Of a stretch of DNA of 23,634 nucleotides, positions 3,415 to 20,859 are shown piece by piece. Made by a program: the position numbers and the translations under genes. Position 1 is the first letter of the stretch; the number at the start of each line of letters is the position of its first letter. The DNA is taken from IMG/VR virus record IMGVR_UViG_3300007722_000112, positions 1 through 23,634 of that record; one strand, 5' to 3'. The notes beneath the pieces were generated by a model. The model was not told the DNA's origin, did not search any database, and saw nothing but the letters and a program-made list of their open reading frames with translations. This stretch comes from a virus.

Positions 3415-3444
3415 ACATACATAAACAGCAACAAGGAGTAGAAG

Positions 3445-3770: not shown

Positions 3771-3798
3771 CTGTGGCTAATTTGCAACAACCCTACGG

Positions 3799-3827: not shown

Positions 3828-3860
3828 ACATACATCAACAACGCACTAGGAGCACACTAA

Positions 3861-4214: not shown

Positions 4215-4221
4215 AAAACAC

Positions 4222-4250
4222 TTGACAGGGCTCCGGCCCTGTGTTATAAT
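4222..4250 (+). promoter_or_regulatory. Strong sigma-70 early promoter P9 with internal hairpin
   Basis: TTGACA (4222-4227), 17-bp spacer, TATAAT (4245-4250). ACAGGGC (4225-4231) and GCCCTGT (4236-4242) form a perfect 7-bp GC-rich stem with loop TCCG, followed downstream by ATACATTTTTAA. The leader differs from the others after ACAT. Drives the AAA+ ATPase gene. Confidence 0.92.
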
Positions 4251-4278
4251 ACATTTTTAAACGCAAAAGGAACACAAG

Positions 4279-5139: not shown

Positions 5140-5381
5140 TACAACGACTAGCCCTGTACCTAGCACTAGGGCTGGTACTGACTCTATCGAACGTTACCCT
5201 AACCAATTGGGAGTTCTGGGCAGTACTGGCGCTGTTCTGGGCAAGCGAGCGCACGGCCAAGGCACAGCAACATGAGCAGAGTTATGTAGAAGGCATACTG
5301 ATGTTCATAGACTTAGACACACAACAACAACAAGACCTGGTCAAGACCATACGACAAGTAGAGAACAAGTACAATGACTAA
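5136..5381 (+). CDS. Small membrane protein coupled to the AAA+ ATPase (81 aa)
   Basis: I chose the ATG at 5136, which overlaps the ATPase stop as ATGA; an in-frame ATG 15 nt earlier also exists. Residues about 4-20 (LALYLALGLVLTLSNVTL) and 24-37 (WEFWAVLALFWA) are hydrophobic and could form two short spans or a hairpin. The rest is a Gln-rich helix (TAKAQQHEQSYVEG, then TQQQQDLVKTIRQVENKY), likely a cytoplasmic coiled coil. No family is recognised. Translational coupling to an AAA+ ATPase suggests a membrane anchor or adaptor for it, which is inference. The last 8 nt overlap the next gene. Confidence 0.65.
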   Translation: MIQRLALYLALGLVLTLSNVTLTNWEFWAVLALFWASERTAKAQQHEQSYVEGILMFIDLDTQQQQDLVKTIRQVENKYND

Positions 5382-5631
5382 TACCGTATACAACAAAGAG
5401 TGCCAGTACCTAGGAGCACAGGCCAAACCCTGCGGCTGCACCAGCGTGGCTCACAAGAGTTACTGTGCAGAGCATGTGTGGTTAGTCTACAAGGAAGGCA
5501 GCAACATCTTACGCAAGAAGGACACCAAGCGATACAGCCAACTGCAGATCATTGTGGACGACTTTAATGCTGTACTAGAAGAACTGGAAGCAGAAGGGTG
5601 GACAGTTGAGTGGGATGGTAGTGTGCAATAA
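5374..5631 (+). CDS. Small zinc-ribbon protein, GcrA-like Cys/His motif (85 aa)
   Basis: Cys10, Cys20, Cys22, Cys31 and His34 (pattern ECQYLG, PCGC, KSYCAEH) resemble the small zinc-binding motif seen at the end of GcrA-type and many phage proteins (CQ[YW]xxG...CG...SYCxEH). Residues about 45-80 form an amphipathic helix and an acidic end (AVLEELEAEGWTVEWDG). A nucleic-acid or RNA-polymerase contact is the usual guess for such ribbons; no direct evidence is present. The ATG lies inside the last codons of the membrane-protein gene (8-nt overlap), making the third gene of the P9 unit. The stop is 8 nt before the P10 -35 box. Confidence 0.7.
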   Translation: MTNTVYNKECQYLGAQAKPCGCTSVAHKSYCAEHVWLVYKEGSNILRKKDTKRYSQLQIIVDDFNAVLEELEAEGWTVEWDGSVQ

Positions 5632-5639
5632 CCCAGAGG

Positions 5640-5668
5640 TTGACAGGGTCTTTGTTTAGTGTTATAAT
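5640..5668 (+). promoter_or_regulatory. Strong sigma-70 early promoter P10
   Basis: TTGACA (5640-5645), 17-bp spacer, TATAAT (5663-5668) with TGT in front. ACCC before and GGGT after the -35 box are inverted, followed by a T-rich stretch, as at P8. Drives the gene at 5709. Confidence 0.9.
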
Positions 5669-5708
5669 ACACACATGTTCAACAGCAGTAGAGAGAGAGT
5701 AACACAGC

Positions 5709-5960
5709 ATGCAAGCAAGCACATACAACATAGAGTTTATTAACACTACTCCCGTAACAGCAAACTACAATGCACAAGTAGATGCACTACTAGCACAAGA
5801 TGCAGATGCAGAGTTAGATGAGTTAACAGAGCAGTTTGTAAACGAGTATGCACTGCAAGATGCATCTGCAGACAACATCGGGGGACTAATTGTATATACA
5901 CATGAAGATGCAGTTGTAGCAGTATACGATTACGAAACGTTTGTAGGCTGGGTAGTATAA
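5709..5960 (+). CDS. Small acidic hypothetical protein (83 aa)
   Basis: I do not recognise this protein. It is acidic throughout, with a helix at about 22-52 rich in A, D, E and L (VDALLAQDADAELDELTEQF) and a C-terminal half of predicted beta strands (GGLIVYTHEDAVVAVYDYET). A GA-rich ribosome-binding site lies 10 nt before the ATG. Codon choice leans to GCA, ACA and CTA, as in the next gene, and differs from the earlier genes, which may mean these two came in together. The gene is followed by a 15-bp inverted repeat and promoter P11. Confidence 0.65.
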   Translation: MQASTYNIEFINTTPVTANYNAQVDALLAQDADAELDELTEQFVNEYALQDASADNIGGLIVYTHEDAVVAVYDYETFVGWVV

Positions 5961-5963
5961 AGT

Positions 5964-6007
5964 ACTAGAGCAGTGTGTAGGGTCTTTACTAGACACACTG
6001 CTCTAGT
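5964..6007 (+). repeat. 15-bp perfect inverted repeat overlapping promoter P11
   Basis: ACTAGAGCAGTGTGT (5964-5978) and ACACACTGCTCTAGT (5993-6007) are exact reverse complements with a 14-nt loop. The right arm covers part of the -35 box. There is no T-run after the stem, so it looks more like an operator or mRNA 3'-end stabiliser than a classical terminator. Confidence 0.85.
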
Positions 6008-6019
6008 GTATGTTATAAT
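5990..6019 (+). promoter_or_regulatory. Sigma-70 early promoter P11 within a palindrome
   Basis: TAGACA (5990-5995), 18-bp spacer, TATAAT (6014-6019) with TGT in front. The -35 box lies in the right arm of the 15-bp inverted repeat. The leader is a long CA-rich run (ACATACACAGCAACACACAC) before AGAGAG and the ATG at 6059. Confidence 0.8.
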
Positions 6020-6058
6020 ACATACACAGCAACACACACACTAGAGAGCACACACACT

Positions 6059-6379
6059 ATGCAAGCACATACACTTGAGACTACTGCTACACAATACAAG
6101 TTTGCAGCAATGCAAAACGCTCGCATGCGCAACTATGCTAATGCTTCATTGTATACAGATGCTGTTAAGATACGTGCAGAGCGCATTAAGTTATTGCTTG
6201 AGATGCTGTACAGTGCAACTAACGTATACATTAACTATCGCAAGACTAAAATTGCAATTAAAGTAGCAGATGCACAAATTAAAGATCGCAAGCAATTACG
6301 TGCAATAGAAGCAGAATGGGCTGCAAATGGCATTACTAAAACAATTAGCGCACAAGGCGTTATATATAGTTTTAAATAA
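6059..6379 (+). CDS. Basic helical hypothetical protein (106 aa)
   Basis: No family is recognised. The product is rich in A, K, R and I and should be largely helical: a first helix at about 8-32, a second at about 34-58 (VKIRAERIKLLLEMLYSATN), and a third at about 60-95 with many Lys and Arg (KTKIAIKVADAQIKDRKQLR). It ends with a short beta-like VIYSFK. Its basic character contrasts with the acidic protein encoded upstream, and the two could interact; this is speculation. It is the last of the promoter-family genes before the non-coding island. Confidence 0.65.
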   Translation: MQAHTLETTATQYKFAAMQNARMRNYANASLYTDAVKIRAERIKLLLEMLYSATNVYINYRKTKIAIKVADAQIKDRKQLRAIEAEWAANGITKTISAQGVIYSFK

Positions 6380-7376: not shown

Positions 7377-8333
7377 CTATTTCACTGGCTGTATGCGCCA
7401 CACTGCCGCAGACTGTTTGCGTTTAGGTATGGATATGTCAGTAAGGCATTGGCATTCTGTGTAGCCGCAGATCACTGGCTTGACCACTTGCTTGTAGCCG
7501 TCTCGAATCCATCCTGAGTAGCCGCCTTGTTCGCAGTTGGCTCTACGGTAACTGCCGTCGAACTGTACAAATGCGGATTTTAGTCCTATGTCGCACTCCC
7601 AGCGACCGAAGTTGTTTTCTCTGCGATTGATCAGTTCCACAGTCCAACTCTTGCCGGGAAATGCCGGTTCGCCCTGACGATCCAGAATGGCAAAGTTTCT
7701 GGGAACAATGGGGTCCACCCAAAGATTTCTATACACAGCAGGATTGTCCAGGAACCAGCGTTGCTGCTGTTCAGTATAGGTGGGAGTTTGACCCGATCCC
7801 CAATCTACTATCATAGTGGGTATAACTGAGACGTCAGTTTCGTTCAACAGTTGATCGTAGATGATCATGCAGTGACCCCAGTAGTCGGGATCCATCATTA
7901 GATTCACCGTGACCTGTTTGACATACTGATTTGCTTGATTTGCTCGTTCGACCCAACCGTCGGCGTGAAACGCAGGATGATAACTGAGTCCTAGATTTTC
8001 TACATCTAGTCCGTCCCAGTATTCTGCCTTACGAACACCGTTGCTACTGACGCCAGCATAGTGTTTAGGGCTGGCAAATTTTTTAAGTAACTTTGGTAAA
8101 AAAGGACTTACTGTAGGCTCGCCCCCTGATATAACCAAATGTATCATGGGGTGCTGTTCTAATATGCTGTCGATAAAGTATTCCGCTTCACTCCAGTCGT
8201 AGTGATGATTCTTGCCCTCGTGTAGATATTTTGGGCAATAGCGGCAATGATTTGTACAGATGTTGTTGATTATCCAAGTTAGATAAAAACGTTTGTAGTC
8301 ACTTACTACTTGGTTGTATGGGCATGGTTGCAT
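7377..8333 (-). CDS. Radical SAM enzyme with C-terminal auxiliary cluster
   Basis: The 318-residue protein has the CxxxCxxC iron-sulfur motif CTNHCRYC (Cys26, Cys30, Cys33) and the SAM-binding GGEPT (70-74), then a partial TIM-barrel region. Five more cysteines near the end (247, 267, 289, 294, 296, with CGYTECQC) suit a SPASM/Twitch-type auxiliary cluster, as in enzymes that modify peptides or nucleosides. The substrate cannot be deduced; no precursor peptide is seen next to it. The ATG lacks a Shine-Dalgarno but has TAAATA exactly 5 nt upstream, so it may be translated from a leaderless late transcript. It is divergent from the tail fibre gene and convergent with the oxygenase-like gene. 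Confidence 0.88.
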   Translation of the reverse strand: MQPCPYNQVVSDYKRFYLTWIINNICTNHCRYCPKYLHEGKNHHYDWSEAEYFIDSILEQHPMIHLVISGGEPTVSPFLPKLLKKFASPKHYAGVSSNGVRKAEYWDGLDVENLGLSYHPAFHADGWVERANQANQYVKQVTVNLMMDPDYWGHCMIIYDQLLNETDVSVIPTMIVDWGSGQTPTYTEQQQRWFLDNPAVYRNLWVDPIVPRNFAILDRQGEPAFPGKSWTVELINRRENNFGRWECDIGLKSAFVQFDGSYRRANCEQGGYSGWIRDGYKQVVKPVICGYTECQCLTDISIPKRKQSAAVWRIQPVK

Positions 8334-8338
8334 AGATC

Positions 8339-8344
8339 TATTTA
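8339..8344 (-). promoter_or_regulatory. Late-type promoter box immediately before the radical SAM gene
   Basis: On the minus strand TAAATA (8344 to 8339) is followed by GATCT and the ATG at 8333. The box matches the last six bases of the T4 late consensus TATAAATA. Transcription from it would begin at about the A of the ATG. Confidence 0.45.
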
Positions 8345-8358
8345 CTTAACCGATCTGG

Positions 8359-8366
8359 GCTAAATA
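8359..8366 (+). promoter_or_regulatory. Candidate late promoter for the tail fibre
   Basis: GCTAAATA matches TATAAATA at 6 of 8 positions, 33 nt before the ATG at 8400. The expected leader is about 28 nt and contains AGGA as ribosome-binding site. A structural gene is the expected client of a late promoter. Confidence 0.4.
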
Positions 8367-8399
8367 GCGTATAGTGGAATCTACGTTCTAGGATTAGAA

Positions 8400-11300
8400 A
8401 TGACAAGCAATATCGACCCAACACAAATTAACCCAGAGTTTCCTGTATCAGGACAAAATAACAGTTCGCAGGGATTTAGAGACAATTTTCAAGGCACTGT
8501 ACAAGGCCTAACTGCTGCCCGTGACGAAATTACAGGGCTGCAACGTAATGCCACAGTAAAAGGCACTACCAGCACAACTAGAGTAGAAAACGCAGACGAC
8601 TTTCAAAACTACATGGTAGGTGCAGAACTGCGTGAAGTACAACTAGCAGATTGGACACAACGCTTGTTCAATCATGGCCCGCAAAGCGGCACAGTTGCTC
8701 TAAGTTACTACGAAGCACCGATACATTATGTAGAAGCGTTTCCCAACGTTACCTTAGGATTAAAACAGTTTCCAGTAGACCAATATGCCACAATGCGTGT
8801 GTATGTTTCAGTTCCGTCTACTGCTACTGTTGTGACATTCAGCGATGTCAGCAGTATTACCAACGTGACTAGATTGGTAAACTTCAACAGCGTCAGCGGC
8901 GAAATGACGTTTGAGACCAGCGGCGTATTTGGTATTGAAATTTCAAGCCGCACTGGTGTTGATTTTGAATTCTTTGACCTTGACCGTAGGAAAATTGATG
9001 CTAGTGTGCAAACAGTTAGTGCTGTGGGTATCAGCGGTAACTTCAACGATCTAAACAGTATTCCAACTGCAAGCGAATCCCTAAAAGGTATCATGCAAGT
9101 TGGTGACGGCCTATTGGTAAATGCCGGTGTTGTCAGTGTTGATACTGCCACAATACAGGTTGCGGTTTCTACAGCAACCACAGCATCAGTAGGTGTTATT
9201 CAAGTTGGGAATGGGTTGACTATTACTCCAGCAGGATTACTAAGTGCTAATCAGTATACTTTACCCACTGCTACAACTGCTACACTAGGCGGTGTTATTA
9301 TCGGCGCTGGCCTTGCAGTAGATTCCACAGGAACATTGAGTGTAGTAGACGGTATTACAGGTGCTACAGGACTAATCGGTGCTACTGGTCCAACAGGTGC
9401 TACTGGAGTGCAGGGCCCAGACGGATTAGGTGTCGGAGTTTATTCAAACAGTTCTATTACAATTGGCACTGGTGCAAAAGTGTTTGTTTTAGAAAGTTTA
9501 GCCGTTTGGTCAATTGGACAGCGAGTTCGTGCTAAAAACTATGCCAGCGGTATTCCTGTTAACGAATGGTTAGAAGGACAAATTACTGCATATGACACTA
9601 CTGGTTCTACAGTTACAGTATATGTTGACCGTACACAGGGTACTGCTACAACATTAACAACTTGGTTTGTTAACGTAGCAGGCGAAGTTGGTTCAACTGG
9701 ACCACAAGGCGCCACAGGCGGACCTGGTGCAACAGGCAGCGGTGCTACTGGTGCTACTGGTGAAAGAGGACCGTTGGGTATTCAAGGATATCAAGGTGCT
9801 ACTGGTGCAGGTGTACAAGGTACTACAGGTGCAACTGGTCCTCAAGGCCCCATTGGCGGACCTGGATCAACCGGATCAACTGGTCCTGTAGGAGCAACTG
9901 GTTTAATTGGATCTACAGGTCCACAAGGAGAAACAGGCGATCCAGGCGGAGCAACTGGTCCACAAGGCGCTACTGGTGCGGCTGGCGCCACAGGTCCTGC
10001 CGGACCAGATGGTGCTACTGGTGCAGGTTCAACAGGTGCTACTGGTTTACCGGGTGCTACAGGTGCGCAAGGACCTGCAGGGAATGTTGGTGCTACAGGT
10101 GCAGGTGCTACTGGCGCTACGGGAGAAGCAGGACCTGCAGGTGCAACAGGACTATATGTAACTAGTGCTACTATTAGTGGCACTAATCTAGTTATTATTT
10201 TAAATGATTCGACTGAAATTGATGCAGGCCCTGTTTCAGGTGCTACAGGAGCAGATGGTGGCATAGGTGCTACAGGAGCAGATGGTGGCATAGGTATCGA
10301 CGGCGCTACTGGTGCTACTGGCCCACAAGGTGCAATTGGTGCTACTGGCAGTTACGGGTCAACAGGCGCCACTGGTCCACAAGGAGAAATAGGTGCCACC
10401 GGCGCAGACTCAATAGTTCCTGGCACAACTGGTGCTACTGGACCAGCAGGTTCCACAGGACCTAGTGGAGTTGGATCAACTGGTGCAGACGGTGCTACAG
10501 GCGCTACAGGTGTTCAAGGCGCAACTGGTCCTGCAGGCGCAACTGGCGCTGGCGCAACTGGTGCTATTGGCAATGATGGTGCCACTGGAGCACAAGGTGC
10601 CACAGGATTATACGTTACTACTGCTACTGTAACCGGAACAAATTTGTTAATTACATTAAATGATAGTAGTGAAATTAATGCCGGTAATATTGTTGGTCCT
10701 ACAGGCGCTACTGGTGCGCAAGGAAATCAAGGCAATGACGGAGCAACGGGTGTACAAGGTGCAACTGGCGAAGGCGCTACTGGTGCAACAGGTCCTACAG
10801 GTGCTACTGGGACAATCGGAGTTGATGGTGCAACAGGTGCAACAGGACCTTCAGGTGCAACAGGTGCAGACTCTACGGTGCCAGGGTCTACTGGTGTACA
10901 AGGTGCAACAGGTCCAATAGGACCACTCGGACCAGAAGGTGCTACTGGTGCAACTGGTGCTACAGGAGAAACTGGCGCAACCGGTGTACAAGGTCCGCAA
11001 GGTATTGATGGAAGTGCTGCTGCCCAAGGTGCTACAGGCGCCACTGGACTATATATTACAACTGCTTCAATAACAGGAACAGAATTGTTGTTAGTATTAA
11101 ATGATGCTAGCGAAATTAACGTTGGATCAGTAATTGGTGCTACTGGACTTACAGGCTCAGAAGGTGCAACTGGTGCTGGTGTACAAGGTACCACAGGTGC
11201 TACTGGTCCAACAGGTGCAACAGGTGCATTAGGAACTACAGGTGCTACTGGTCCGCAAGGTGCAACTGGACCTACAGGTGATTTAGGCGCAACCGGTGCT

Positions 11301-12710
11301 ACTGGTCAGGGTGCTACAGGTGCGCAAGGAAATCCGGGAGCAGAAGGTGCTACAGGCGCAACAGGTGCTACTGGACCTGCAGGTGCTACTGGAGTTGGCG
11401 CCACAGGTGCTACAGGTCCTCAAGGACAATATGTTACTACTGCCAGTGTTACAGGTACTACATTAATACTTACATTAAATGATAGTAGTACAGTAGTAGT
11501 TGATGGATCTATACAAGGTGCGACTGGGCCAATTGGACCTAATGGTGGAAATGGCGGAACAGGCGCAACAGGCGCAACAGGTGCTGACGGGGCGACTGGT
11601 CCAATAGGCGCTACCGGCGTCGAAGGTCCAGTAGGTCCGACAGGTCCGGCACTACTTGCTTTTAGTAGTTCGACTAATACTGTTAGCACAGGAACTAAAA
11701 CATTTACAGATTTATACGATGTTAACGGTACTCCAAATGTATCGGGATACACCGCAGGTATGCGAATTAGAGCAGGAGCAATTAATTCTCAACCATTTAG
11801 TTATATGGACGGACAAGTCGAAAGTGTAAATTTAGCCACTACGTCGTTGATTTTTATATCGGATTACGCTCAAGGAACGCTAGGACTTTCGAGTAGTTCT
11901 TGGGCAATTAGCATAGCAGGCGAAAACGGACTTATAGGCCAGCCAGGTCTCGGGTATGTTCTTTGGGCATATGATAATCCTGTTAGTTTAGCAACTATAG
12001 GTTCTGATACTGAGGTACAGTTTGCCGTTGAAAGTGAAGAGCATGCATATACTACTGGGCAAAGAATAAGAGCAATTGTCAAAGAACGTGCATTTTTAAG
12101 TTACTTGGAAGGAACATTAGTTGCAAGAACAGGTACAGACTGGACCATATTAATTGACGAGTATTTTTTAAGTCCAGACGAAGATATTGTTACATTTAGC
12201 ACTTGGACCTTTGCAGTTGCAGGCAGTAGACCTACAAGTACTGCTACTCAATTATATTTGGCAGGTGTTACTATTGCAACAAATACTGTTAGTGGAACGC
12301 TAGTAGTTGCAGGTGGAGTAGGAATTGGAGAAAATTTATTTGTTAAGAGTTTACAAGGCGTCGGAAACCGAGCAGTGTATTCAAGCCAAGAGGGCGAAGT
12401 TACTAATAGTTCCTCAGATGCAAATTTAAAAACAAATGTACATCCGATTGATCAAGGACTTACTGCTACACTTGCATTAAATTCAATTAAGTTTAATTGG
12501 ATAGATACTGAAAGATTTGGTTCACAGACTGAAATCGGCTTTCTTGCACAACAAGTACAGCAAGTTGTTCCTGAAGTAGTCGGAACAAATAGTGACGGCA
12601 CATTAAGTGTGGACTATCCAAAACTAACTGCGGTGTTAACAAAGTCTATTCAAGAACTGTCTGCTAAAGTTGAAGAATTAGAAGCAAGATTATCTGCCGC
12701 TGGTTTATGA
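8400..12710 (+). CDS. Collagen-like tail fibre with C-terminal S74 chaperone domain
   Basis: This 1436-residue protein is the probable host-recognition fibre. Residues 1-about 320 are an N-terminal attachment region with beta-rich repeats. GATG-type Gly-X-Y repeats begin at about 320, pause for a beta module (about 345-428), then run from about 430 to 1083, interrupted by four related inserts of about 35 residues ([39 protein letters not shown] and [13 protein letters not shown] types, each continuing LNDSSEI-like). Two more copies of the first beta module follow (about 1084-1175 and 1180-1275). The end (about 1338-1436) is an intramolecular chaperone: [39 protein letters not shown] and a coiled-coil tail. 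S74 domains trimerise the fibre and often cleave themselves off near the Ser of the SSD motif. AGGA precedes the ATG. Confidence 0.95.
9357..11650 (+). repeat. Degenerate tandem repeat coding for collagen-like Gly-X-Y
   Basis: GGTGCTACTGGT-like 12-mers repeat hundreds of times in phase with the reading frame, encoding GATG units, with synonymous codons (GCT/GCA/GCC, ACT/ACA/ACC) mixed along the array. The mixture reduces exact repeat length, which should limit slippage and recombination. Confidence 0.9.
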
Positions 12711-12724
12711 AAATTTAATCAGGG

Positions 12725-12753
12725 TTGACATAGTGTTGTAAATATGCTACAAT
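12725..12753 (+). promoter_or_regulatory. Sigma-70 promoter P12 lying inside a palindrome
   Basis: TTGACA (12725-12730), 17-bp spacer, TACAAT (12748-12753). The expected start of transcription, about 12760, is only 4 nt before the ATG at 12764, so the mRNA would be nearly leaderless. Confidence 0.75.
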
Positions 12754-12766
12754 TTACAACACTATG
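12729..12766 (+). repeat. 15-bp perfect inverted repeat covering promoter and start codon
   Basis: CATAGTGTTGTAAAT (12729-12743) and ATTTACAACACTATG (12752-12766) are exact reverse complements with an 8-nt loop. The right arm ends with the ATG start codon of the following gene, and the left arm starts within the -35 box. Confidence 0.92.
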
Positions 12767-13531
12767 AACTCATTCTCACATTCAGGAACATTCGGCGATT
12801 TAATTTACTCCCTTGCTATGGTCAAGCACTTAGGTGGAGGAGATTTTTATTTGCGTCTTAACGATATGGATCGTATGGCACACCGTGTATTAGGTGCACC
12901 AAATGCTGGCGATCACAAGGGCGAGATGACCGAAGCCCAGTTCGAAGCACTCCGACCTTTAATAGAAAGTCTTCCTTATATCAACAGTTTTAAACCATAC
13001 AACGGTGAAGAAATTACACACGACCTAGGCGAGTGTGGTTTTGAAATTGTTAAACAAAACGGTAACTACATGTATTCGTATGCTACCTGATTAGGTCTCG
13101 ACTTTTATAAACATTATAAAGAATTCATGTATCAGCCTTGGTTAGAAATCAAAGACGCTATTCGTATTCCTGGTAAGCCAATTGTGGTCAATCGTGTTAA
13201 TAGACACCTGTATGGATGTGATCCCGATGCTAAAGCATGGAAAGATTTCTTTAAAAAAGGACTGTCGGACATGGCAGTATATGTAGGGAAAGAAAGTGAA
13301 CATGCATGGTTTGAGCAAAGCCTAGGTATTAAAATTCAGCATTATAAAACTGAAAATATTTTAGAAGTTGCACAAGTGATTGCAGGCGCAGAACAATTTA
13401 TAGGTAGTCAAAGCATGTGCCTAAGTATTGCATTAGGCTTAGGAAAAACTACACTATGCGAATGCCGCAAAGATTTACCTTTACAAAGAAATGAATGTTA
13501 TTTTATCAGACCCAATGTCCACTACTTCTAA
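12764..13531 (+). pseudogene. Glycosyltransferase-9-like gene interrupted by one TGA
   Basis: The frame runs 255 codons from the ATG at 12764 to the stop at 13531, with a single in-frame TGA at 13088-13090; both halves align with the intact paralogue that follows. The N-terminal SHSGTFGDLIYSLAMVKHLGGGDFYLRL and the C-terminal FIGSQSMCLSIALGLGK blocks resemble the nucleotide-sugar fold of heptosyltransferase-like (GT9) proteins. The paralogue has Ser where the TGA stands (YAT-stop-LGLD against YASSQGVD). Outcomes are a dead gene, two separately made halves (a second ATG is at 13127), or read-through. Everything after the TGA remains open and conserved, so the lesion is recent or tolerated. A nearly leaderless start at a palindrome is described separately. 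Confidence 0.75.
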
Positions 13532-14312
13532 TCTATCTTTTACCCACTCAGGCACATTAGGTGATGTGCTTACTAGTTTATCCGTTGTTAAATTGTTAGG
13601 CGGCGGCGATTATTATCTTCGTCTTAACAACATGGATAATGTTGTTAAACAGTACCTCGGCTGGCCTGGCTCTGGTATTCACAGCGGTCGTATGACACAA
13701 CAAGACTTTGATATGTTAGAATCTTTAATGACTAGCCAAAGTTATATTAAAAGTTTTCAAGTATGGCAAGGACAAGAAGTTACTAACGTATTTGAAGAAC
13801 AATGTCTTCATCATCAAGCAAGTGGTATTTGGCCTAGGAACTTCAGTAATCAATATGCATCTAGCCAAGGTGTTGATATGGAGGCAAACTTTGAAGCACT
13901 TCAGCAACGTTCCTGGTTAGAGTGCAAAGACCCCATTCGCATTCCGGGACGCCCTATTGTTATTAGTCGTAATGAGAAATATTTAGACGGCGCACCTATC
14001 TTTAATCCGCAATGGAAAGAATGGATTGACATGGGGCTAGCAGATCAATGTGTGTTTGTAGGACACGAAGGCGAACACGCTTGGTTTGAAGATTTATACA
14101 AGTGTGAAGTCGATTACTATAACACAGAAGACCTGCTACACTTATCAAGAGTATTAGCAGGTTGTGATTTGTTTATAGGTAATCAAAGCATGCCAGGAAC
14201 TATGGCAAGTATTTGTTTGGGCAAAACTAGTCGAATTGAATTGCGTAAGAACGAAACTTACAACAATAACGAATTTATATATCCTTACAGAATCAATATT
14301 TCTTATTTTTAA
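13491..14312 (+). CDS. Glycosyltransferase-9-like protein, tandem paralogue
   Basis: The 273-residue product repeats the preceding gene: LSFTHSGTLGDVLTSLSVVK (about 15-34), LLGGGDYYLRLNNMD, SWLECKDPIRIPGRPIV (about 140-157), FVGHEGEHAWFEDLY, and FIGNQSMPGTMASICLGKT (about 232-250). The GTLGD start and the late GNQS...A...LG block are reminiscent of GT9 heptosyltransferases, in which the second motif binds the nucleotide sugar; I hold this as a moderate inference. The start is either 13491 or ATG 13515, which aligns better with the paralogue; both overlap the end of the upstream gene. A role in modifying the Thr/Ser-rich fibre or host surface sugars fits the position beside the fibre gene. It ends tail to tail, overlapping the next gene by 4 nt. 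Confidence 0.7.
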   Translation: MNVILSDPMSTTSNLSFTHSGTLGDVLTSLSVVKLLGGGDYYLRLNNMDNVVKQYLGWPGSGIHSGRMTQQDFDMLESLMTSQSYIKSFQVWQGQEVTNVFEEQCLHHQASGIWPRNFSNQYASSQGVDMEANFEALQQRSWLECKDPIRIPGRPIVISRNEKYLDGAPIFNPQWKEWIDMGLADQCVFVGHEGEHAWFEDLYKCEVDYYNTEDLLHLSRVLAGCDLFIGNQSMPGTMASICLGKTSRIELRKNETYNNNEFIYPYRINISYF

Positions 14313-15115
14313 TTTTTCAATTGTTTTTCGAAAAATTCTTTTGTGCGCTTCTCAGCGTCCTGGGCTGCATTGGCATCGTACTTAATCGTATACCCGTAAC
14401 GATTAATGTAATTTAATCCAGGTGTATCAAAACCGTGATGAACGCTAGGGTAAATTTTTAAGTCGATATTCGGATTTTCATTGGCGAGATAATCGCAAAA
14501 AAATGGAGGTGTCCAGTCATCTGAATCACCAACTAAAATTAAAGTTGGAATTTTGGCTTTGACATGTTCCGGTTTGCAGGACGGATAGTATGCAACAGCC
14601 GCTGAAATATTTATATTTTGATACACATCCCTAGGAGTTTCTAATTTAAATATGTAAAGATTTCCCCCGTCCCCGGCCAAATTTAATGCTGCAACTGCTC
14701 CCATGCTATATCCAATTACACCAACTTTACCTTTATGCCAAGGTTGTTTCTTGACCCATTCCGCAGTTTTTAGTACATCCTCAAGTCTGTCATTATTGGT
14801 AACATTTACGAGACCACTACTGCTGCAAGCCGTATTGAATCCTCGACTTCGCAGACTATCTGGCTGTACGACATTGTAGCCCCAGTCATTTAATTTATTT
14901 TTCCAATCTAAATATGCACCATTAAGCCCGGAGCAACCGTGTGCATATATCACTGTAGGACTCGGGTTTTCGAGGGCATATGTGTTTATGATTAATGATA
15001 CTTCTTTGGGCTTTTGGGTTGGTAGCGGATTTAGTTGCTTATACCGAAGAGTATCGGTAGTAACACACCCGGCTAATGCAAATATTAAAACTAATAGTAA
15101 AAATACTCGTTTCAT
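14309..15115 (-). CDS. Lipoprotein alpha/beta hydrolase (dienelactone hydrolase-like)
   Basis: Residues 1-17 are a lipoprotein signal: MKR, a hydrophobic core and a lipobox LAGC with Cys17. The mature part has alpha/beta-hydrolase features: an oxyanion-type HGCSG (59-63), the nucleophile elbow GYSMG (Ser137), GDSDDW with a catalytic Asp candidate at 197-200, and HHGF with His226/227. This matches the dienelactone hydrolase family (PF01738), which cleaves ester or lactone bonds. The enzyme would be anchored to a membrane facing the periplasm, so it may act on envelope lipids, surface polysaccharide esters or an antibiotic-like substrate. A phage gene of this kind is unusual. Its ATG overlaps the stop of the nucleotidase gene (TAATG) with AAAGG upstream; it closes a three-gene operon. 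Confidence 0.88.
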   Translation of the reverse strand: MKRVFLLLVLIFALAGCVTTDTLRYKQLNPLPTQKPKEVSLIINTYALENPSPTVIYAHGCSGLNGAYLDWKNKLNDWGYNVVQPDSLRSRGFNTACSSSGLVNVTNNDRLEDVLKTAEWVKKQPWHKGKVGVIGYSMGAVAALNLAGDGGNLYIFKLETPRDVYQNINISAAVAYYPSCKPEHVKAKIPTLILVGDSDDWTPPFFCDYLANENPNIDLKIYPSVHHGFDTPGLNYINRYGYTIKYDANAAQDAEKRTKEFFEKQLKN

Positions 15116-15627
15116 TACTGTACCTTTCTTGCTTCTAAAAATAATTCCGCAACTTGATCAAGGGCTTTCTGATAGTCCTTGGTTACACGAACAGTAATGC
15201 CACCTACAGATTCCCATTGTTGGCAGTTATCAATTCTATCGTCAACAAGAATATCACTTGACTTGCAGTGATTTTGTTTGTCTTCTGAGTAAGGTCCAAA
15301 GTGAACAGGAATGTCAGGATATCTCTCTTGTGCCCAAAGTACTTTATCCCAAAACGCCCAGTGTACATCGTTGTAATGAGGAATAGCAGTTAGGAATAAT
15401 AGTTCATATCCTGCTTCATCTCTAAATTGACGAGCAAGATTAACCATGTCGTCTGCTTGTGGCATTTTTGGTAACTGTCGAAATATGCGTTGATTATTAC
15501 GGATTTTTTCCCAATCACTAGGAGAGTACATAGCAGTAGGATCATCAAGCCTGTAACCGATAAAGTCTCCAACGCCTGCGTTCCAATCGGCTACTACACC
15601 GTCCATGTCTAAATAAATTGTATTCAT
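15115..15627 (-). CDS. HAD-family 5'(3')-deoxyribonucleotidase
   Basis: The 170-residue protein has HAD motif I at the very N-terminus, DMDGVVAD (Asp7 nucleophile, Asp9), motif II FLTAIP (Thr80), a Lys near 117-122 and motif IV SSDILVDDRIDN (Asp129, Asp130). The C1-cap region and the DILVDDR...NCQQW ending match phage and bacterial 5'(3')-deoxyribonucleotidases (NT5C family), which dephosphorylate dNMPs and may tune nucleotide pools during phage synthesis. Because motif I begins at residue 5, the ATG at 15627 must be the start. There is no Shine-Dalgarno; a TAGACA-17-TATAAT promoter ends 5 nt before the ATG. It follows the nucleotidyltransferase by 15 nt and overlaps the lipoprotein gene by one base. 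Confidence 0.88.
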   Translation of the reverse strand: MNTIYLDMDGVVADWNAGVGDFIGYRLDDPTAMYSPSDWEKIRNNQRIFRQLPKMPQADDMVNLARQFRDEAGYELLFLTAIPHYNDVHWAFWDKVLWAQERYPDIPVHFGPYSEDKQNHCKSSDILVDDRIDNCQQWESVGGITVRVTKDYQKALDQVAELFLEARKVQ

Positions 15628-15632
15628 GCTAT

Positions 15633-15661
15633 ATTATAACATTTATATACTCATTTGTCTA
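15633..15661 (-). promoter_or_regulatory. Candidate promoter directly abutting the nucleotidase start codon
   Basis: On the minus strand TAGACA (15661 to 15656), 17-bp spacer, TATAAT (15638 to 15633), then ATAGC and the ATG at 15627. A late-like TATAAATG (15647 to 15640) overlaps the spacer. Either would give a leader of zero to seven nucleotides. Confidence 0.5.
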
Positions 15662-16329
15662 TCGTGTAATTTACCAATCGCATCCATGAGTTTGCCTACT
15701 TGTCCGTCGTTACGCAGTGCTTTGAATACTAGATTAGGGACACCAAATTCACCTGCTTGTGCAAGACCAGCCTTACGATACATTTTTAACATGTCTTTAA
15801 TATTGCGACACATTTCTAAATTTCCCGTAGCAATTGCACCGTCAATTGCTCGTTCCCAGATAGCAAATACTCGTTCTACTTCTGGTTTGTCATATTTGAC
15901 TGCATCTTGAGTAGGACGATTAATCCATTCACCTTTGATAACAGAGTAACTGCTACTAACTGGAGGATGGTCTACATCTTCTACATATAGTTCAACAGGA
16001 ACACCTGCAATATTAATATCATGTTGTTGTGCCCAGAGTTTGCGTTTTGCATCAAACAATTCGTCTACTGCAACGTCGCAGTTAACTTGACTGTAGGGAA
16101 CAATTAGGTGTAGGTCTAAATCGCTATGTTTGGTATAGTTGTAATTAACTTGACTACCTGAAACTACTAAATTTAACAAAGTAACATCTAAATCTAAAAA
16201 TGCATAAAATTCTTTTGCAATTTTTAATAGTGCAACTCTTACATTAGATCGTAAGTGATCGTCCTTCCATAATACAGGATTTAAGGTGCTGTGGATCTCG
16301 ATAGGATCAGTATATTCAAACATGCTCAT
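15643..16329 (-). CDS. Pol beta-superfamily nucleotidyltransferase
   Basis: With the ATG at 16329 the product is 228 residues. GSQ (58-60) followed by HSDLDLHLIV (68-77, metal-binding Asp70 and Asp72) and VPVELYVED (110-118, third acidic residue Glu113) is the signature of the Pol beta nucleotidyltransferase fold. The target is unknown: it could be a protein, RNA or small molecule. Related stand-alone enzymes occur in large marine T4-like phages. Residues after about 120 form a helical domain. An upstream TTG at 16359 would extend the frame by 10 codons but overlaps the divergent gene; the chosen ATG has AATAAATA 5 nt before it and no Shine-Dalgarno. It heads the three-gene minus-strand operon. 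Confidence 0.85.
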   Translation of the reverse strand: MSMFEYTDPIEIHSTLNPVLWKDDHLRSNVRVALLKIAKEFYAFLDLDVTLLNLVVSGSQVNYNYTKHSDLDLHLIVPYSQVNCDVAVDELFDAKRKLWAQQHDINIAGVPVELYVEDVDHPPVSSSYSVIKGEWINRPTQDAVKYDKPEVERVFAIWERAIDGAIATGNLEMCRNIKDMLKMYRKAGLAQAGEFGVPNLVFKALRNDGQVGKLMDAIGKLHDRQMSI

Positions 16330-16334
16330 ATCTT

Positions 16335-16342
16335 TATTTATT
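16335..16342 (-). promoter_or_regulatory. Late-type promoter box before the nucleotidyltransferase gene
   Basis: AATAAATA (16342 to 16335, 7 of 8 against TATAAATA), then AAGAT and ATG at 16329. It faces away from a similar box at 16348-16353 on the other strand. Confidence 0.45.
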
Positions 16343-16347
16343 TCCGG

Positions 16348-16353
16348 TAAATA
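16348..16353 (+). promoter_or_regulatory. Late-type promoter box before the YqgE gene
   Basis: TAAATA (16348-16353), TTTCA, then ATG at 16359: the same 5-nt spacing as the minus-strand cases. No Shine-Dalgarno is present. Confidence 0.4.
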
Positions 16354-16358
16354 TTTCA

Positions 16359-16919
16359 ATGATTGAAAAGAAAGACCTAACCGGACAAATTATTGCATCT
16401 CGCCCAAATAACGCAGATACTTATTTTTCCAAATCTGTTATCATAGTAGGAAAACACAGTCCGACAGGATCGTGGGGTCTCGTAGTCAATAAACCTACCG
16501 AAAAAATTACATTAGATCATATAATGCGGCAAACTGGAATACTTTCTAAAAAAGAAGATAAGGTCTATATAGGAGGTCCGGTAGACACTAATAGAGTATA
16601 TATTGTACATACCTTAGATTGGACTGCACCTACTACAATGCAAATTACCAAAGATATAGGTGTTACTACTGACATATCTATACTGGCCGCAATTGCAGGT
16701 AACGAAGGGCCTGCATTATTTAGAACATGCTTGGGTATATGCCAATGGGCACCTAAACAACTTGACGGAGAATATTTTAGTCAAGAGCCATGGAGTCCTG
16801 CCGATAGTTGGGTAGATGCTCCTGCTACAATAGAGGCAGTGTTTCATTTAAACGAAGAAGATCAATGGATACACGGAATTGATTATATTACCAAAAATAA
16901 TATATCTAATTGGTTTTAG
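16359..16919 (+). CDS. yqgE: YqgE/AlgH family protein (UPF0301/DUF179)
   Basis: The full 186-residue length and motifs match the bacterial YqgE/AlgH family: LTGQIIASRP near the start, SWGLVVNKPTEKITL (38-52), KVYIGGPVDTNRVYIVHT (68-85), ITTDI-like strand, and the late GICQWAPKQLDGEYF...WSPADS (126-150), which corresponds to the conserved G-x-x-W-x-P-x-QL-x-x-E block. The family's molecular function is unsettled; AlgH was linked to alginate regulation in Pseudomonas. Finding a whole copy in a phage suggests capture from a proteobacterial host, although its AT-rich codons match its neighbours, so capture is not recent. It is divergent from the nucleotidyltransferase and ends tail to tail, overlapping the helicase stop by 4 nt. 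Confidence 0.9.
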   Translation: MIEKKDLTGQIIASRPNNADTYFSKSVIIVGKHSPTGSWGLVVNKPTEKITLDHIMRQTGILSKKEDKVYIGGPVDTNRVYIVHTLDWTAPTTMQITKDIGVTTDISILAAIAGNEGPALFRTCLGICQWAPKQLDGEYFSQEPWSPADSWVDAPATIEAVFHLNEEDQWIHGIDYITKNNISNWF

Positions 16920-18364
16920 TCTTTTTCGGGACTAAACGCATTTAACATATCTCTAGCATTTCTTGTAGGCATGCTCGATTTTGCAATCTTAGAAACTGGC
17001 ATTCCTTTTGTAGGATCTATTTCGCCTGTTTCGGGATCTACGTTAGTACTAGTTACTAAACTTGTTTTCTTTAACCCGTCAATTAGCGCACTACTTGCTG
17101 CACTACGCTGACTTGCAAAACTTTGCTCTTCTGCTTCTTCACCTAGGTCATTAATGCGTAATGTATCAATGTTAAATTCCAAATCAACTTTTTGACCAAC
17201 ACCGCTTGATGACCGAGTTTTCATAAACTGAATTTGATAGCGGCCTCGCTCACGCATTGCTCGGCTTGTAAAGATACCAATAACGTTGTCTGCTGTTTGA
17301 ATCTTACTCAGGCCCCCGCTGATGTGACTGTGATCAAATTCAACTTCCTCAACTGCTGAACGATTTAACTGTGCCGCAGTGACTACTACTGACTGCGTTT
17401 CCATAGCAAAGTTACGAAGTTCTTCTGATACATATTTGTCTTTAACAAACAGATCACTTGGACTAACTTTAACAGATAGCGGCATCATAAGGTCTAAGTA
17501 GTCTACTAAAATAATGTCAGGTTTTTTTCCTGTTTTAACCTGAAATTCTTTTAAATATGACCGCAAATCGTTACAATTCTTACCTGAAGGCATGTACTTT
17601 ATCTGCATTCCACCGGCACGTCGACCTGTCATCTTAACCTTCATTTCTACATCATCAATGTTGCGGAAAATTTCTTTGGCTGCAATATCGGTAATCATCG
17701 AGTCAATCCGCATACTTACTAACTCTTCCGAAAGTTCGAATGTAAAGTAGACAACATTTAAACCGGCAAGTGAAAAGTTTACACCTAAGTTTGCTAAGAA
17801 CAATGACTTGCCGCCACCTGACCCGGCAGCGAAAATATTAAGTTCGCCTCTTTTAAAACCACCGTATAACTTTCTATCAATGCTTGGCCAGCCAGTTGAA
17901 ATCTGTCCATTATTGTCTTTCATTCGCAACAATCGAGCACGAGGATCATCCCAGTAATCAGTTCCCATATCTCTGCTCAAACTAATTTGAATAGCGTCTT
18001 TAATCAGTTTCTCAACCGGATTGTACTCACCTTTTTCCAACATATCTGCTGATTTAAGAATCGCTCTCTCAAGGCCTTTATGCCTGCTAAAAGTTTCAAA
18101 TTCATTTAGCAACCATTCATAGTTTTCCTTTGCAAGCGCAACAGATTCGAACGAATTACTAGTAGATGCATTAACAATGGTAACTTCTGGCATTACCTTG
18201 TAATCGTCAACATATTTGGTAATAAAGGTTGCCGCATCTTGATAACGCTTGTCAAAGTTTTCCGGATCGAAAATGTTTTGACAGCGTACAAAAGTTTCTG
18301 CATCTCCTAAAAACATTTCGAGATACAGTTTTTGCATCTCTGCATTATAGTTTGGTTTATTCAT
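16916..18364 (-). CDS. 41: Replicative DNA helicase, T4 gp41-like (DnaB family)
   Basis: The 482-residue protein has the RecA-type ATPase core of hexameric replicative helicases: Walker A AGSGGGKS (180-187), the FELSEE segment (209-214), Walker B IILVDYLD (284-291), VTAAQLNR (328-335) and a likely arginine finger in MKTRSSSG (Arg384). The N-terminal 150 residues are the helical collar domain that contacts the primase. It moves 5' to 3' on the lagging strand ahead of the T4-type replisome. The C-terminal 80 residues are polar and probably flexible. Its ATG lies inside the last codons of the primase gene (8-nt overlap), so the pair is made together and forms the primosome. Confidence 0.94.
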   Translation of the reverse strand: MNKPNYNAEMQKLYLEMFLGDAETFVRCQNIFDPENFDKRYQDAATFITKYVDDYKVMPEVTIVNASTSNSFESVALAKENYEWLLNEFETFSRHKGLERAILKSADMLEKGEYNPVEKLIKDAIQISLSRDMGTDYWDDPRARLLRMKDNNGQISTGWPSIDRKLYGGFKRGELNIFAAGSGGGKSLFLANLGVNFSLAGLNVVYFTFELSEELVSMRIDSMITDIAAKEIFRNIDDVEMKVKMTGRRAGGMQIKYMPSGKNCNDLRSYLKEFQVKTGKKPDIILVDYLDLMMPLSVKVSPSDLFVKDKYVSEELRNFAMETQSVVVTAAQLNRSAVEEVEFDHSHISGGLSKIQTADNVIGIFTSRAMRERGRYQIQFMKTRSSSGVGQKVDLEFNIDTLRINDLGEEAEEQSFASQRSAASSALIDGLKKTSLVTSTNVDPETGEIDPTKGMPVSKIAKSSMPTRNARDMLNAFSPEKD

Positions 18365-19349
18365 CTAAGTTTTCTAGTTTTTTCTTTAGTAGTTGTATTT
18401 TTATCTTGTTCGTTTCTTTGTAGTTAATAATTGTAAGTAGTGTATATAGCCTACCATATTTCTTAACTGCATCGGCACAATCTTTTATATCTGATTCCCA
18501 CGGCGGAATACTAACCGCCCATTCATTTTCTAATGCCGCTGTTATTATTTTTGCCCCGGGTTTATCTCTGTCCGGTACTACAATAACTGTTTTACCCAAC
18601 ATTTTTATTCTTGCTATTTGTGTTGCATTAGGTTCGTTATGCATAATTGCCACTCCGTCTACTGCAATGGCATCAAACTGTCCTTCTACTACTAATACAT
18701 ATTCTCTATCATCTTGTTGCGGATCTACGTTGAATACATATCCGGCCTGTGCATCAGTTAGGTATTTTGGTTTACCTTCAGTTATCTTTCTTCCAGTCCA
18801 TCCTACTGTCTCTTGATTGCAGTAGAAGGGCAAAAGTAATCGATCTCTATAACCATTTTCTGGACTCCAATGCCAGTTGTACCAATCTAATTCCATACCT
18901 CGATTAACTATATAATCAGCACAGGCAATAACATCCGAATTAGGATCTTCTTCTAACCATTCAATTATCGGCTTGCTATCTTTAGGAAGCAATCTTGGCT
19001 CTAGGTTAAAATTTATAACTGGGGTTTTTACTACCTCTGCGTCTTCTTTAGATCGCAATGCCTCTAGATTTAATTTGGTTATTTCGTCATTGGCCATACC
19101 CATCCAACGAAACAGGTCTTTTGTATTCTTACTTAGTAGTCTGCCCGGGCTCCATCCTGCTTTAAAATTACAATTGAAGCAGTGATATTGAAATCCTTCT
19201 TCGTTAAAAAGAACCCCGCCACGTTTTCTAGTGTCTGTTTTTTCGCCTCTATTGTGACAGCAGACTGCATTAAAACTTGTCCAACCGCTAGGAGTAGCCT
19301 TTCTTTTACCAGGTAAGAAAGTTTGTACAGTTGATTGTATGAGGTTCAT
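18357..19349 (-). CDS. 61: DNA primase, T4 gp61-like (DnaG family)
   Basis: The 330-residue protein has an N-terminal zinc-binding domain with ligands in VCCHNRG (Cys30/31, His32) and YHCFNCNF (Cys57, Cys60). The middle region includes RDRLLLPFY (168-176), then a TOPRIM core: VVEGQFDAIAV (Glu222), VVPDRDKPG (Asp260, Asp262) and WESDIKDCADAVKKYG. This is the layout of gp61/DnaG primases that synthesise RNA primers for Okazaki fragments. The gene overlaps gp41 by 8 nt. The ATG follows the virion-protein stop by 9 nt, has no Shine-Dalgarno, and has TTAAAATA 5 nt upstream. Confidence 0.93.
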   Translation of the reverse strand: MNLIQSTVQTFLPGKRKATPSGWTSFNAVCCHNRGEKTDTRKRGGVLFNEEGFQYHCFNCNFKAGWSPGRLLSKNTKDLFRWMGMANDEITKLNLEALRSKEDAEVVKTPVINFNLEPRLLPKDSKPIIEWLEEDPNSDVIACADYIVNRGMELDWYNWHWSPENGYRDRLLLPFYCNQETVGWTGRKITEGKPKYLTDAQAGYVFNVDPQQDDREYVLVVEGQFDAIAVDGVAIMHNEPNATQIARIKMLGKTVIVVPDRDKPGAKIITAALENEWAVSIPPWESDIKDCADAVKKYGRLYTLLTIINYKETNKIKIQLLKKKLENLDE

Positions 19350-19354
19350 GCATA

Positions 19355-19362
19355 TATTTTAA
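19355..19362 (-). promoter_or_regulatory. AT-rich late-like box before the primase gene
   Basis: TTAAAATA (19362 to 19355), TATGC, then ATG at 19349. It is the weakest match of the five (6 of 8 to TATAAATA), but has the same spacing. Confidence 0.3.
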
Positions 19363-20459
19363 CTTCTATACAATACTTTGTCAACTTTTCCGTTTGGATA
19401 ATATGCAGTTCCTGGAGTAGGATTTCCGGGCAATTGTGGACTGTAATGATTATAAGTTCCGTCAGTATCCGGAATCCATTTTATTCTAACATCGCTCCAA
19501 CTGCCAACAGCATTAGCATAATCGACTCCAGTAAATCCAGTATATGTTTTTGTTTCCAAAGTTACATAATTTCCAAACGAACCGGGACTATTATCTAGTG
19601 TTGCTTGAATTAGCACTGTGCCTGTAAAATTCTCAAGGTAAAGAGCGGCTGTTGTTGTTTGTGTTAGTTCTGGATATGCTCTTAAATTGCCTGTGTAAAA
19701 TTCGTATAAATTAGTCTGCTCATTTGCAAATCTTTGAAAACTTACGACAGAACCACTCTCTTTTAATGTAGGATATAAATCGTGTGTTAAGTTTACCGTA
19801 CCGTCTATTCCGTAGTAGGTATTCGAGTATGATGGTAATTTGCCGCCGTCGCTGTCTGTTAGAGTAATGCCGTATTTGTAATATCCGCTTGATAAAGATC
19901 GGGTGTCGTTTTCGTTTAAAGTTAATAAGGCTATGCCTCGAGTTGCTGTTGTGACACCGTCATCTAAAACTTCTAATTGTTTTTCTAAAACTAGTCGTTG
20001 TTCGTTAGCATTAAACATGCTGAATACAAAATTTTGATTGAATGCTATTGATGTACCCGAACTGATTGTAGTTAATATAGGTGATTGAAATTGCTCAGTA
20101 TCTAGGTTGTAAACAGGATTTAGGTTGGCAATAATAACGCTATCTGCATTTACAGAAGAAACATAAGTTCCCGGAAGCACATTATTACTGTTAACTGTCA
20201 TTCCTGCAACAATGCCAGTTGTGCTATCTAAAAATATTTCTGTGCTTGATGTTGAAATTTCCTGGGTAGTTGCGCCAGCGGCTTTGATTCTAACAGTTTT
20301 CTGGTCAGAATTTTTAACTTGAATTTGAACTTTATTTTTAAGTCCTTTTTGTATTTTTAGTTCACGCTGGTACATTGTTCTATCTATCCTTGTATTATTG
20401 TCCACATCTAATTGCACTTGCATTAAATTGGAGTATAAATAAACTGGTAATTTTTGCAT
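19359..20459 (-). CDS. Virion structural protein (baseplate/tail-associated, T4-like marine phage type)
   Basis: The 366-residue product begins with an extended beta segment (LPVYLYSNLMQVQLDVD) and MYQRELKIQKGLKNKVQIQVKNSDQK (about 29-54), which I recall from structural proteins of marine T4-like phages. The rest is beta-rich, Thr/Ser/Asn-rich and Cys-free, as in virion proteins, with GYYKYGITLTDSDGGKLPSY, NLYEFYTGNLRAYPELTQ and a final VDKVLYRS that recurs in these proteins. Residues about 60-125 (TTQEISTSSTEIFLDS onward) look like an inserted Ig-like or carbohydrate-binding module. I cannot say which virion part it belongs to. It sits among replication genes and has AATAAATA 5 nt before the ATG, fitting late expression. 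Confidence 0.7.
   Translation of the reverse strand: MQKLPVYLYSNLMQVQLDVDNNTRIDRTMYQRELKIQKGLKNKVQIQVKNSDQKTVRIKAAGATTQEISTSSTEIFLDSTTGIVAGMTVNSNNVLPGTYVSSVNADSVIIANLNPVYNLDTEQFQSPILTTISSGTSIAFNQNFVFSMFNANEQRLVLEKQLEVLDDGVTTATRGIALLTLNENDTRSLSSGYYKYGITLTDSDGGKLPSYSNTYYGIDGTVNLTHDLYPTLKESGSVVSFQRFANEQTNLYEFYTGNLRAYPELTQTTTAALYLENFTGTVLIQATLDNSPGSFGNYVTLETKTYTGFTGVDYANAVGSWSDVRIKWIPDTDGTYNHYSPQLPGNPTPGTAYYPNGKVDKVLYRS
20434..20441 (+). promoter_or_regulatory. Exact T4-type late promoter TATAAATA
   Basis: TATAAATA at 20434-20441 matches the T4 late consensus perfectly and points to the + strand gene at 20476. The expected leader is about 29 nt. It lies inside the start of the minus-strand virion gene. 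Confidence 0.6.
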
Positions 20460-20464
20460 ACATA

Positions 20465-20472
20465 TATTTATT
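20465..20472 (-). promoter_or_regulatory. Late-type promoter box before the virion-protein gene
   Basis: AATAAATA (20472 to 20465), TATGT, then ATG at 20459, in the 16-bp divergent gap. An out-of-frame ATG overlaps the spacer. Confidence 0.45.
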
Positions 20473-20475: not shown

Positions 20476-20859
20476 ATGACCAGTAAGGACGACTTTCAGA
20501 AAAACTTTCCGTTTATAACCAGTGTAAAAACATCGGTTAACGAATATATCGGAATAGTAATCAACTACGACCTCAATGTTACCAGCATCTATAGTTATGC
20601 TGATATACGTTCTGAGGAAGAAAGAAAATTATTTCTAGAATTAGGAGAAACATGGTGGTGGGAATCCAATAGAAAAATTCCAATCAACATATTCTTAAAA
20701 CAGGATATGATAGACTTTAGACCATATGTTAAAACATTTAACAGTAAAGATGTTGAAATAATATTTGGACCAATTGTAAATTTAGGTGAAATTGCAGAAA
20801 AACGAGTTAAACGTAAAAGCATTCAACTGGTTAGAAACGTTAAGAAAAACCGTAACTAA
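20476..20859 (+). CDS. Conserved hypothetical phage protein (127 aa)
   Basis: The product has a beta-rich first half (SVNEYIGIVINYDLNVTSIY, likely a five-stranded small barrel), an acidic helix (RSEEERKLFLELGETWWWES), and a basic C-terminal third (NLGEIAEKRVKRKSIQLVRN). WWWESNRKIPINIFLKQDM is striking, and I believe it is conserved in T4-like marine phages, but I cannot attach a function. The basic tail suggests contact with nucleic acid or the capsid. It is the only + strand gene in the right-hand block and has an exact TATAAATA late promoter 35 nt upstream. Its last 20 nt overlap the 3' end of the DnaE-like gene on the other strand. Confidence 0.7.
   Translation: MTSKDDFQKNFPFITSVKTSVNEYIGIVINYDLNVTSIYSYADIRSEEERKLFLELGETWWWESNRKIPINIFLKQDMIDFRPYVKTFNSKDVEIIFGPIVNLGEIAEKRVKRKSIQLVRNVKKNRN

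Follow-up and report, generated by a model that had tools for sequence, protein, structure and literature searches.

TAAATA boxes abutting start codons in a T4-related jumbo phage clade: probable late promoters for leaderless messages

How is a late gene expressed when its putative promoter leaves hardly any room for a leader? The question is raised by the window analysed here, which is the whole 23,634-base virus record IMGVR_UViG_3300007722_000112 (G000), taken as a partial genome of an uncultured jumbo phage related to T4. In a preliminary description of this window, five genes were noticed that have a TAAATA-like hexamer five bases before the ATG, and leaderless messages from T4-type late promoters were proposed for them. 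The coordinates were checked and the five sites are as placed: TAAATA-N5-ATG is exact at four of them (ATG at 8333, 16329, 16359 and 20459), and the fifth (19349) has AAAATA. The boxes are real and clade-wide, and we consider it likely that they are T4-type late promoters placed for messages with no leader or a leader of 3 nt, beside a second, leadered late class. The fifth site is better read otherwise, as described below.

Putative late boxes in the window and its clade

The distance k is the number of bases from the last A of the box to the A of the ATG. The four boxes with k=5 lie at 8339..8344, 16335..16340 and 20465..20470 on the minus strand and at 16348..16353 on the plus strand, the last being back to back with the box at 16335..16340 in an intergenic gap of 29 bp. 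The genes that they precede, all predicted to be leaderless, encode a radical SAM protein (7377..8333, minus; Pfam PF04055), a phrog_36119 protein of unknown function (15643..16329, minus), an AlgH-like protein (16359..16919, plus; PF02622) and a virion structural protein with a weak match to phrog_14467 (19359..20459, minus). A short box was present in both orthologue rows of the radical SAM gene (the window and L005), and a box at k=4-9 was found in 62/62 rows of the phrog_36119 gene, in 55/65 rows of the AlgH-like gene and in 60/80 rows of the virion structural gene. For the latter, 84 tblastn matches yielded 80 rows, the remainder being without a usable start, and the 20 rows that have no short box include cases in which the picked start lies well away from the beginning of the alignment. 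The two strands of the window together hold 16 copies of TAAATA, against 25.7 expected from dinucleotide shuffles. At k=5 of the 36 window starts, four were observed against 0.012 expected (P ~9e-10, or ~4e-8 for four boxes at one distance after correction for 40 possible distances).

Boxes with leaders had also been described at two genes, and both were found. The box at 8361..8366 (plus) has k=33 to the ATG of the tail fibre gene (8400..12710, plus), with AGGA at 8390-8393. The other (TATAAATA; 20436..20441, plus) has k=34 to the ATG of the phrog_11637 gene (20476..20859, plus), the divergent partner of 20459, and lies within the first codons of that neighbour. Orthologues of the 20476 gene have a box at k=18-44 in 85/96 rows and at k=4-9 in eight; no Shine-Dalgarno (SD) sequence was present in 73 clade loci.

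The helicase of the window matched at least 595 IMG/VR stretches, from which 80 were kept; among the 40 top-ranking phage records of the listing, the matches included jumbo phages such as PA5oct, Atu_ph07, Phosso, XaC1, SCTP-2 and RaK2 (39-55% identity). A tree of 106 helicase rows places the window inside an 80-row group with a support of 99. L251 together with L252 joins this group next, followed by PA5oct-like contigs, and RaK2, XaC1, Atu_ph07, Phosso and T4 lie outside, the outer order being unsure in this midpoint-rooted tree with long branches. No near-identical DNA relative of the window was found in the phage collection. The clade set used for counting holds 80 sequences, the window included (1.69 Mb; 1,152 TAAATA boxes). 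Excluded from it were L002, the helicase of which is 100% identical to that of the window, and seven loci contained in larger contigs. Near-identical pairs remain in the set, hence counts were also made by protein family.

TAAATA-Nk-ATG was counted wherever the ATG opened a frame of 60 or more codons, so that gene calls were not needed. The clade gave 22, 151, 58, 57, 33 and 10 rows for k=4 to 9, against a background of 1-7 rows at each distance of k=10-17. By protein family, k=4 to 8 accounted for 9, 41, 14, 14 and 20 families. Boxes near starts that were no commoner than expected had been named as the outcome that would speak against the proposal; the relatives did not give this outcome, as k=5 was found in 151 rows against a background mean of 4.8. 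The peak at k=5 is present separately in each of seven large contigs (5-9 rows), and six further contigs, which partly overlap loci already among the 80, contain 36 matches of TAAATANNNNNATG versus three for the reversed pattern. Start codons at k=5 were ATG in 151 rows, GTG in eight and TTG in five, TTG being no higher than at other distances.

Chance or an A+T-rich composition could be invoked, as the A+T content of the window is 58% and TAATTA shows a mild increase at k=5 (29 rows versus ~12). However, no comparable k=5 peak exists for AAAATA or AAATTA, and TAAATA is rarer overall than expected, yet is found in 119 to 151 rows at k=5. Chance is therefore given hardly any credence. The observed/expected ratio of TAAATA is 0.52 in the clade, 0.35 in RaK2, 0.23 in XaC1 and 1.17 in Phosso; it is as if, in most of these genomes, selection acted against stray late promoters.

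The distances were also determined in isolates. TAAATA peaks at k=28 in T4 and is commonest ~20-45 nt before the ATG in RaK2, XaC1, Phosso and Atu_ph07. PA5oct was considered as a leaderless isolate and rejected: its genome has no clear k=5 peak and its top start-proximal hexamer is AGGAGA. A smaller short class at k=4-8 occurs in PA5oct-like contigs (nine in G016, 13 in G017 and one in G018, for which 140 of 425 kb were covered). The cyanophages Syn9 and S-PM2 have three and five copies of TAAATA-N5-ATG compared with three and three of the reversed control, which is no clear enrichment. The suggestion that two late classes exist was borne out in the window and the seven large contigs, where 98 of 457 boxes are at k=4-8, 61 are at k=13-45 with an SD (duplex of -5 kcal/mol or lower), 42 are at k=13-45 without one and 256 are elsewhere.

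Probable start of the RNA, Shine-Dalgarno use and genes behind the boxes

Box distance, initiator bases and terminators all point to a 5' end at the start codon or 3 nt before it. At k=5 the base preceding the ATG is a pyrimidine in 37/41 families, compared with 67/133 SD starts (P 3e-6) and 31/55 long-box starts (P 3e-4). Of the 20 families at k=8, 85% have a pyrimidine as the fifth base after the box (box+5) and 70% have A at box+6, and AYT-ATG is common to the k=7 and k=8 classes. The long-box promoters of T4 have T or C at box+5 in 24/38 cases and A or G at box+6 in 27/38, and those of Atu_ph07 have a pyrimidine in 45/76 and a purine in 64/76. These initiator bases fit a 5' end at about box+6, which would give leaders of 0 or 3 nt. 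A review on T4 late transcription places the 8-bp box roughly one turn of the helix upstream of the start. Terminators were found in 8/69 short-box families (24/321 rows), in 3/55 long-box families and in 1/960 random 90-mers. Of the 24 short-box rows with a terminator, 16 have their T-run ending 12-17 nt upstream of the ATG, so that a promoter other than the box would hardly fit. A -35 element does not accompany the box: TTGACA with at most one mismatch occurs 15-19 bp before it in 4/69 families, and in 4, 1 and 2 of 69 at control distances.

With one row per family, the median SD duplex is 0.30 kcal/mol for the 69 short-box families (-6 or lower in 4% of them), -2.6 for k=28-45 and -1.5 for random ATGs. 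When the flanks were shuffled and the box was kept, the median over all rows was 0.6 kcal/mol, which indicates that the SD is displaced by the box itself. The SD is in use within the clade, where 133 families have SD-type starts. Ten families were compared between 61 clade rows and 37 isolate rows, the start picks in the isolates being partly doubtful. In the clade the box is at k=4-8 in 57 rows, at k=9-18 in two, at a longer distance in one and absent from one; the 57 short-box rows have a median SD duplex of 0.4 kcal/mol and reach -5 or lower once. In the isolates the box is at k=19-41 in 17 rows with a median of -6.8 kcal/mol, 16 of the 17 being at -5 or lower. These leadered rows belong to virionstr406, the head-tail adaptor Ad2, an 885-aa structural protein, virion199 and phrog_11259, and no long box was found in the isolate rows of the terminase large subunit, tail tube and baseplate wedge. 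The two arrangements even meet in one family: of the seven clade contigs with virion199, five have k=5-7 and SD duplexes of 0.4 to -3.1 kcal/mol, and two have k=17-18 with AGGA and duplexes of -4.3 and -7.5.

Could the box be a translation signal instead, an A/U-rich upstream element on a transcript that starts further upstream? The missing SD of the short class is in keeping with this, as is gene 20476, which has a conserved leader without SD. Nevertheless, the same hexamer stands 19-41 nt upstream of SD-bearing orthologues (16/17 rows), 16 rows have a terminator ending 12-17 nt upstream of the ATG, the pyrimidine-A initiator signature is present, and the divergent starts are only 29 bp (16329/16359) or 16 bp (20459/20476) apart, which makes a translation signal improbable. 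Even less weight is given to late promoters whose RNA would begin within the first few bases of the gene, or to translation from a downstream in-frame codon. At 16329 a second ATG does lie two codons on, but in the ten families most clade alignments start at residue 1 (offset 0), and so do several isolate orthologues.

The seven large contigs contain 80 short-box rows (at least 90 codons) in 25 families, six of which are present in 7/7 contigs. The PHROG scan covered 19 of the 25 families and gave matches to the terminase large subunit, tail tube, head-tail adaptor, baseplate wedge, several virion structural proteins, a possible terminase small subunit and an endonuclease V-like protein, the rest being unknown or unmatched. 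Virion and packaging genes would thus be driven, as by T4-type late promoters. The box itself is TATAAATA-like, its core TAAATA being fixed by the design of the search, but the leading TA is not fixed. A gp55-like late sigma (phrog_234) was detected in G009, G011 and G014 (hidden Markov model E 4e-26 to 2e-25), that is in 3/15 clade fragments, and in 7/7 isolates; it was not found among the window proteins scanned. Phage-encoded bS21 was considered as a translational partner and received no support, PF01165 being found in 0/15 clade records, all of which are fragments.

Taken with the position and conservation of the box, the absence of an SD compared with orthologues, the initiator signature, the gp55 homologue and the virion-gene content, this suggests the following mechanism. 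The TAAATA boxes would be T4-type late promoters that have a -10 element only and no -35, and host RNA polymerase with the phage gp55-like sigma would read them late in infection. The RNA would begin at about the sixth base after the box, which is the A of AUG at k=5, with one base of slack at k=4 and 6, and at k=7-8 it would begin at the A of a 3-nt leader, AYU-AUG. Short-box messages lack an SD, and their translation would follow the leaderless or near-leaderless mode; other late genes in the same genomes would retain a leader and an SD. We infer the exact 5' end, the lateness, the use of the host polymerase and the leaderless translation; the leaderless messages first proposed are supported as probable.

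Several observations weigh against this mechanism. Orthologous rows are not independent, so that the family counts are the safer ones. The gp55 homologue was not found in the remaining 12/15 clade fragments, and the gp45 clamp model PF02916 matched T4 only (1/20 records), missing RaK2, XaC1, PA5oct and Atu_ph07 as well. Among the isolate rows of the ten families, 17/37 have no TAAATA within 50 nt, a further two carry it at k=9 and k=12, and one yielded no start, hence the leadered comparison spans under half of the rows. A pyrimidine at box+5 was not seen in the long-box promoters of RaK2, XaC1 and Phosso, and the evidence for a start at box+6 therefore comes from T4, Atu_ph07 and the clade. 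The major capsid gene (PF07068) of G008, G009, G011 and G014 is leadered with an SD of -7.3 to -8.5 kcal/mol; TAAATA precedes it at k=24 and 27 in G008 and G011, and is absent within 700 nt upstream in G009 and G014. Finally, gene 20476 combines a late box and a leader with the lack of an SD, so a missing SD alone is no proof of leaderlessness, and some mRNAs may be translated with neither leaderlessness nor SD.

The primase start and probable sigma70 promoters

The late boxes claimed for five genes held at four, where a T4 type is supported. The fifth site, before ATG 19349, was rejected as a late promoter; a host-type sigma70 promoter, TTGACA-N17-TAAAAT-N6-ATG, fits it better. Its -35, TTGACA (19379..19384, minus), lies inside the end of the upstream gene, and its -10, TAAAAT (19356..19361, minus), follows after a 17-bp spacer and ends 6 nt before the ATG. 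The gene (18357..19349, minus; phrog_47) encodes DNA primase and is predicted to be leaderless from this promoter. A match with at most two mismatches over 12 bases was found in 80/101 orthologue rows (71/78 clade, 8/18 PA5oct-like), compared with 0/101 shuffles and 1/105 helicase starts. The distance from the end of the -10 to the start is 5-7 nt in 79 of these 80 rows, including 71/78 clade loci; among the PA5oct-like loci it is 6-7 nt in 7/18 and 9 nt in one. The conserved end of the upstream gene extends into this promoter in the clade, which means that the conservation of the promoter is partly coding. Among 103 primase start codons, 69 are ATG, 30 GTG and four TTG; PA5oct itself has TTGACA-N17-TATAAT-N6-GTG.

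It looks as if the primase would also be leaderless, yet from an early-type promoter. Leaderless placement is therefore not unique to late promoters, and conversely the major capsid gene with its SD implies that late genes are not all leaderless. The proposed tie between late transcription and a leaderless mode of translation is accordingly not an exclusive one. It is possible, though we doubt it, that leaderless placement is general to the host, with sigma70 and late promoters both abutting starts, and is no device of the phage; this is compatible with the late-promoter reading of the boxes. The primase loci of the clade and of the PA5oct-like contigs are in agreement with it, and so is the sigma70 spectrum of the clade, with a peak at k=6 (42 rows in 17 families) and with the primase family supplying 24 of the k=5-8 rows. 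Against it, the majority of clade sigma70 starts are leadered (mode k=23-36), and the gp55 gene of G011 is preceded by AGGAGG. Moreover, the k=6 peak was rejected as wholly real: it is partly an artefact, several of the ATGs being inside the early leader ACATACATG.

Further sigma70-like promoters were seen by eye in the window. A TATAAT -10 (15633..15638, minus; TAGACA at 15656-15661, 17-bp spacer) ends 5 nt before ATG 15627 of a deoxyribonucleotidase-like gene (15115..15627, minus; phrog_2643) that is possibly near-leaderless. TTGACA-N17-TACAAT at 12725-12763 (plus) ends 10 nt before ATG 12764, giving a sigma70-like short leader with no evident SD. The left part of the window, to ~6,400, carries small genes having sigma70 promoters with leaders and many a clear SD; at 1-6100, several early genes share sigma70 promoters of the form TTGACA-N17-TATAAT, followed by a ACATACATCAACA-like leader and in many cases by a clear SD. 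In the region 12764-14312 (plus), frames 12764 and 13491 start similarly (HSGTFGDL and HSGTLGDV) and resemble duplicated genes, and frame 13127 is in the same frame as 12764, after a stop. The two proteins tested in this region had no PHROG match. Assignment of a host via the hydrolase gene at 14309-15115 was tried and given up, its two distant matches offering no clue.

Comparison with known systems

T4-type late transcription is a textbook system, in which the late boxes are separated from the gene by the length of a leader. In the clade, a T4-type promoter appears to yield leaderless mRNAs for core virion genes. No literature on leaderless mRNAs from T4-type late promoters was found, most subscription journals being outside the coverage. 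Leadered and leaderless orthologues can be compared among related phages, even within one gene family, and provide a natural experiment on the trade-off of promoter position, SD use and gene dosage. Exact 5' ends are predictable from the sequence, and start-site callers that depend on the SD could miss these starts. Speculatively, this lineage might have turned the T4-type late programme into a two-tier translation, in which fusion of promoter and AUG frees one virion set from SD selection and the major capsid and some others keep SD leaders. The promoter-to-AUG distance would then set both timing and translation mode, perhaps together with a leaderless-favouring state of the ribosomes in the infected cell.

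The clade shares with the gp55-dependent late promoters of T4 (TATAAATA) a -10-only box, late virion genes and a gp55-like sigma. It differs in that TAAATA has no fixed preceding TA and its main peak is at k=4-8, whereas in T4 boxes are commonest near k=28. The late mRNAs of phiKZ are reportedly leaderless. Jumbo phages of the phiKZ type, with a TATG late promoter, have their own multisubunit RNA polymerases, whereas the clade has a T4-type sigma. The AR9 paper describes phage transcripts as often leaderless and cites TATG, with the start at G, for the late promoters of phiKZ. Leaderless mRNAs of mycobacteria need no more than an ATG or GTG as their 5' end according to PMC4633059, and resemble the primase orthologues, where starts are mostly ATG or GTG (69 + 30 of 103). 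The clade and PA5oct (Wroclawvirus) have in common the order of structural, primase and helicase genes, a gp55 homologue and a primase start after TTGACA-N17-TATAAT-N6. The mycobacterial messages are those of bacterial genes, with no phage sigma involved. PA5oct differs from the clade in having no genome-wide k=5 peak, and the boxes found among its ten-family orthologues are leadered.

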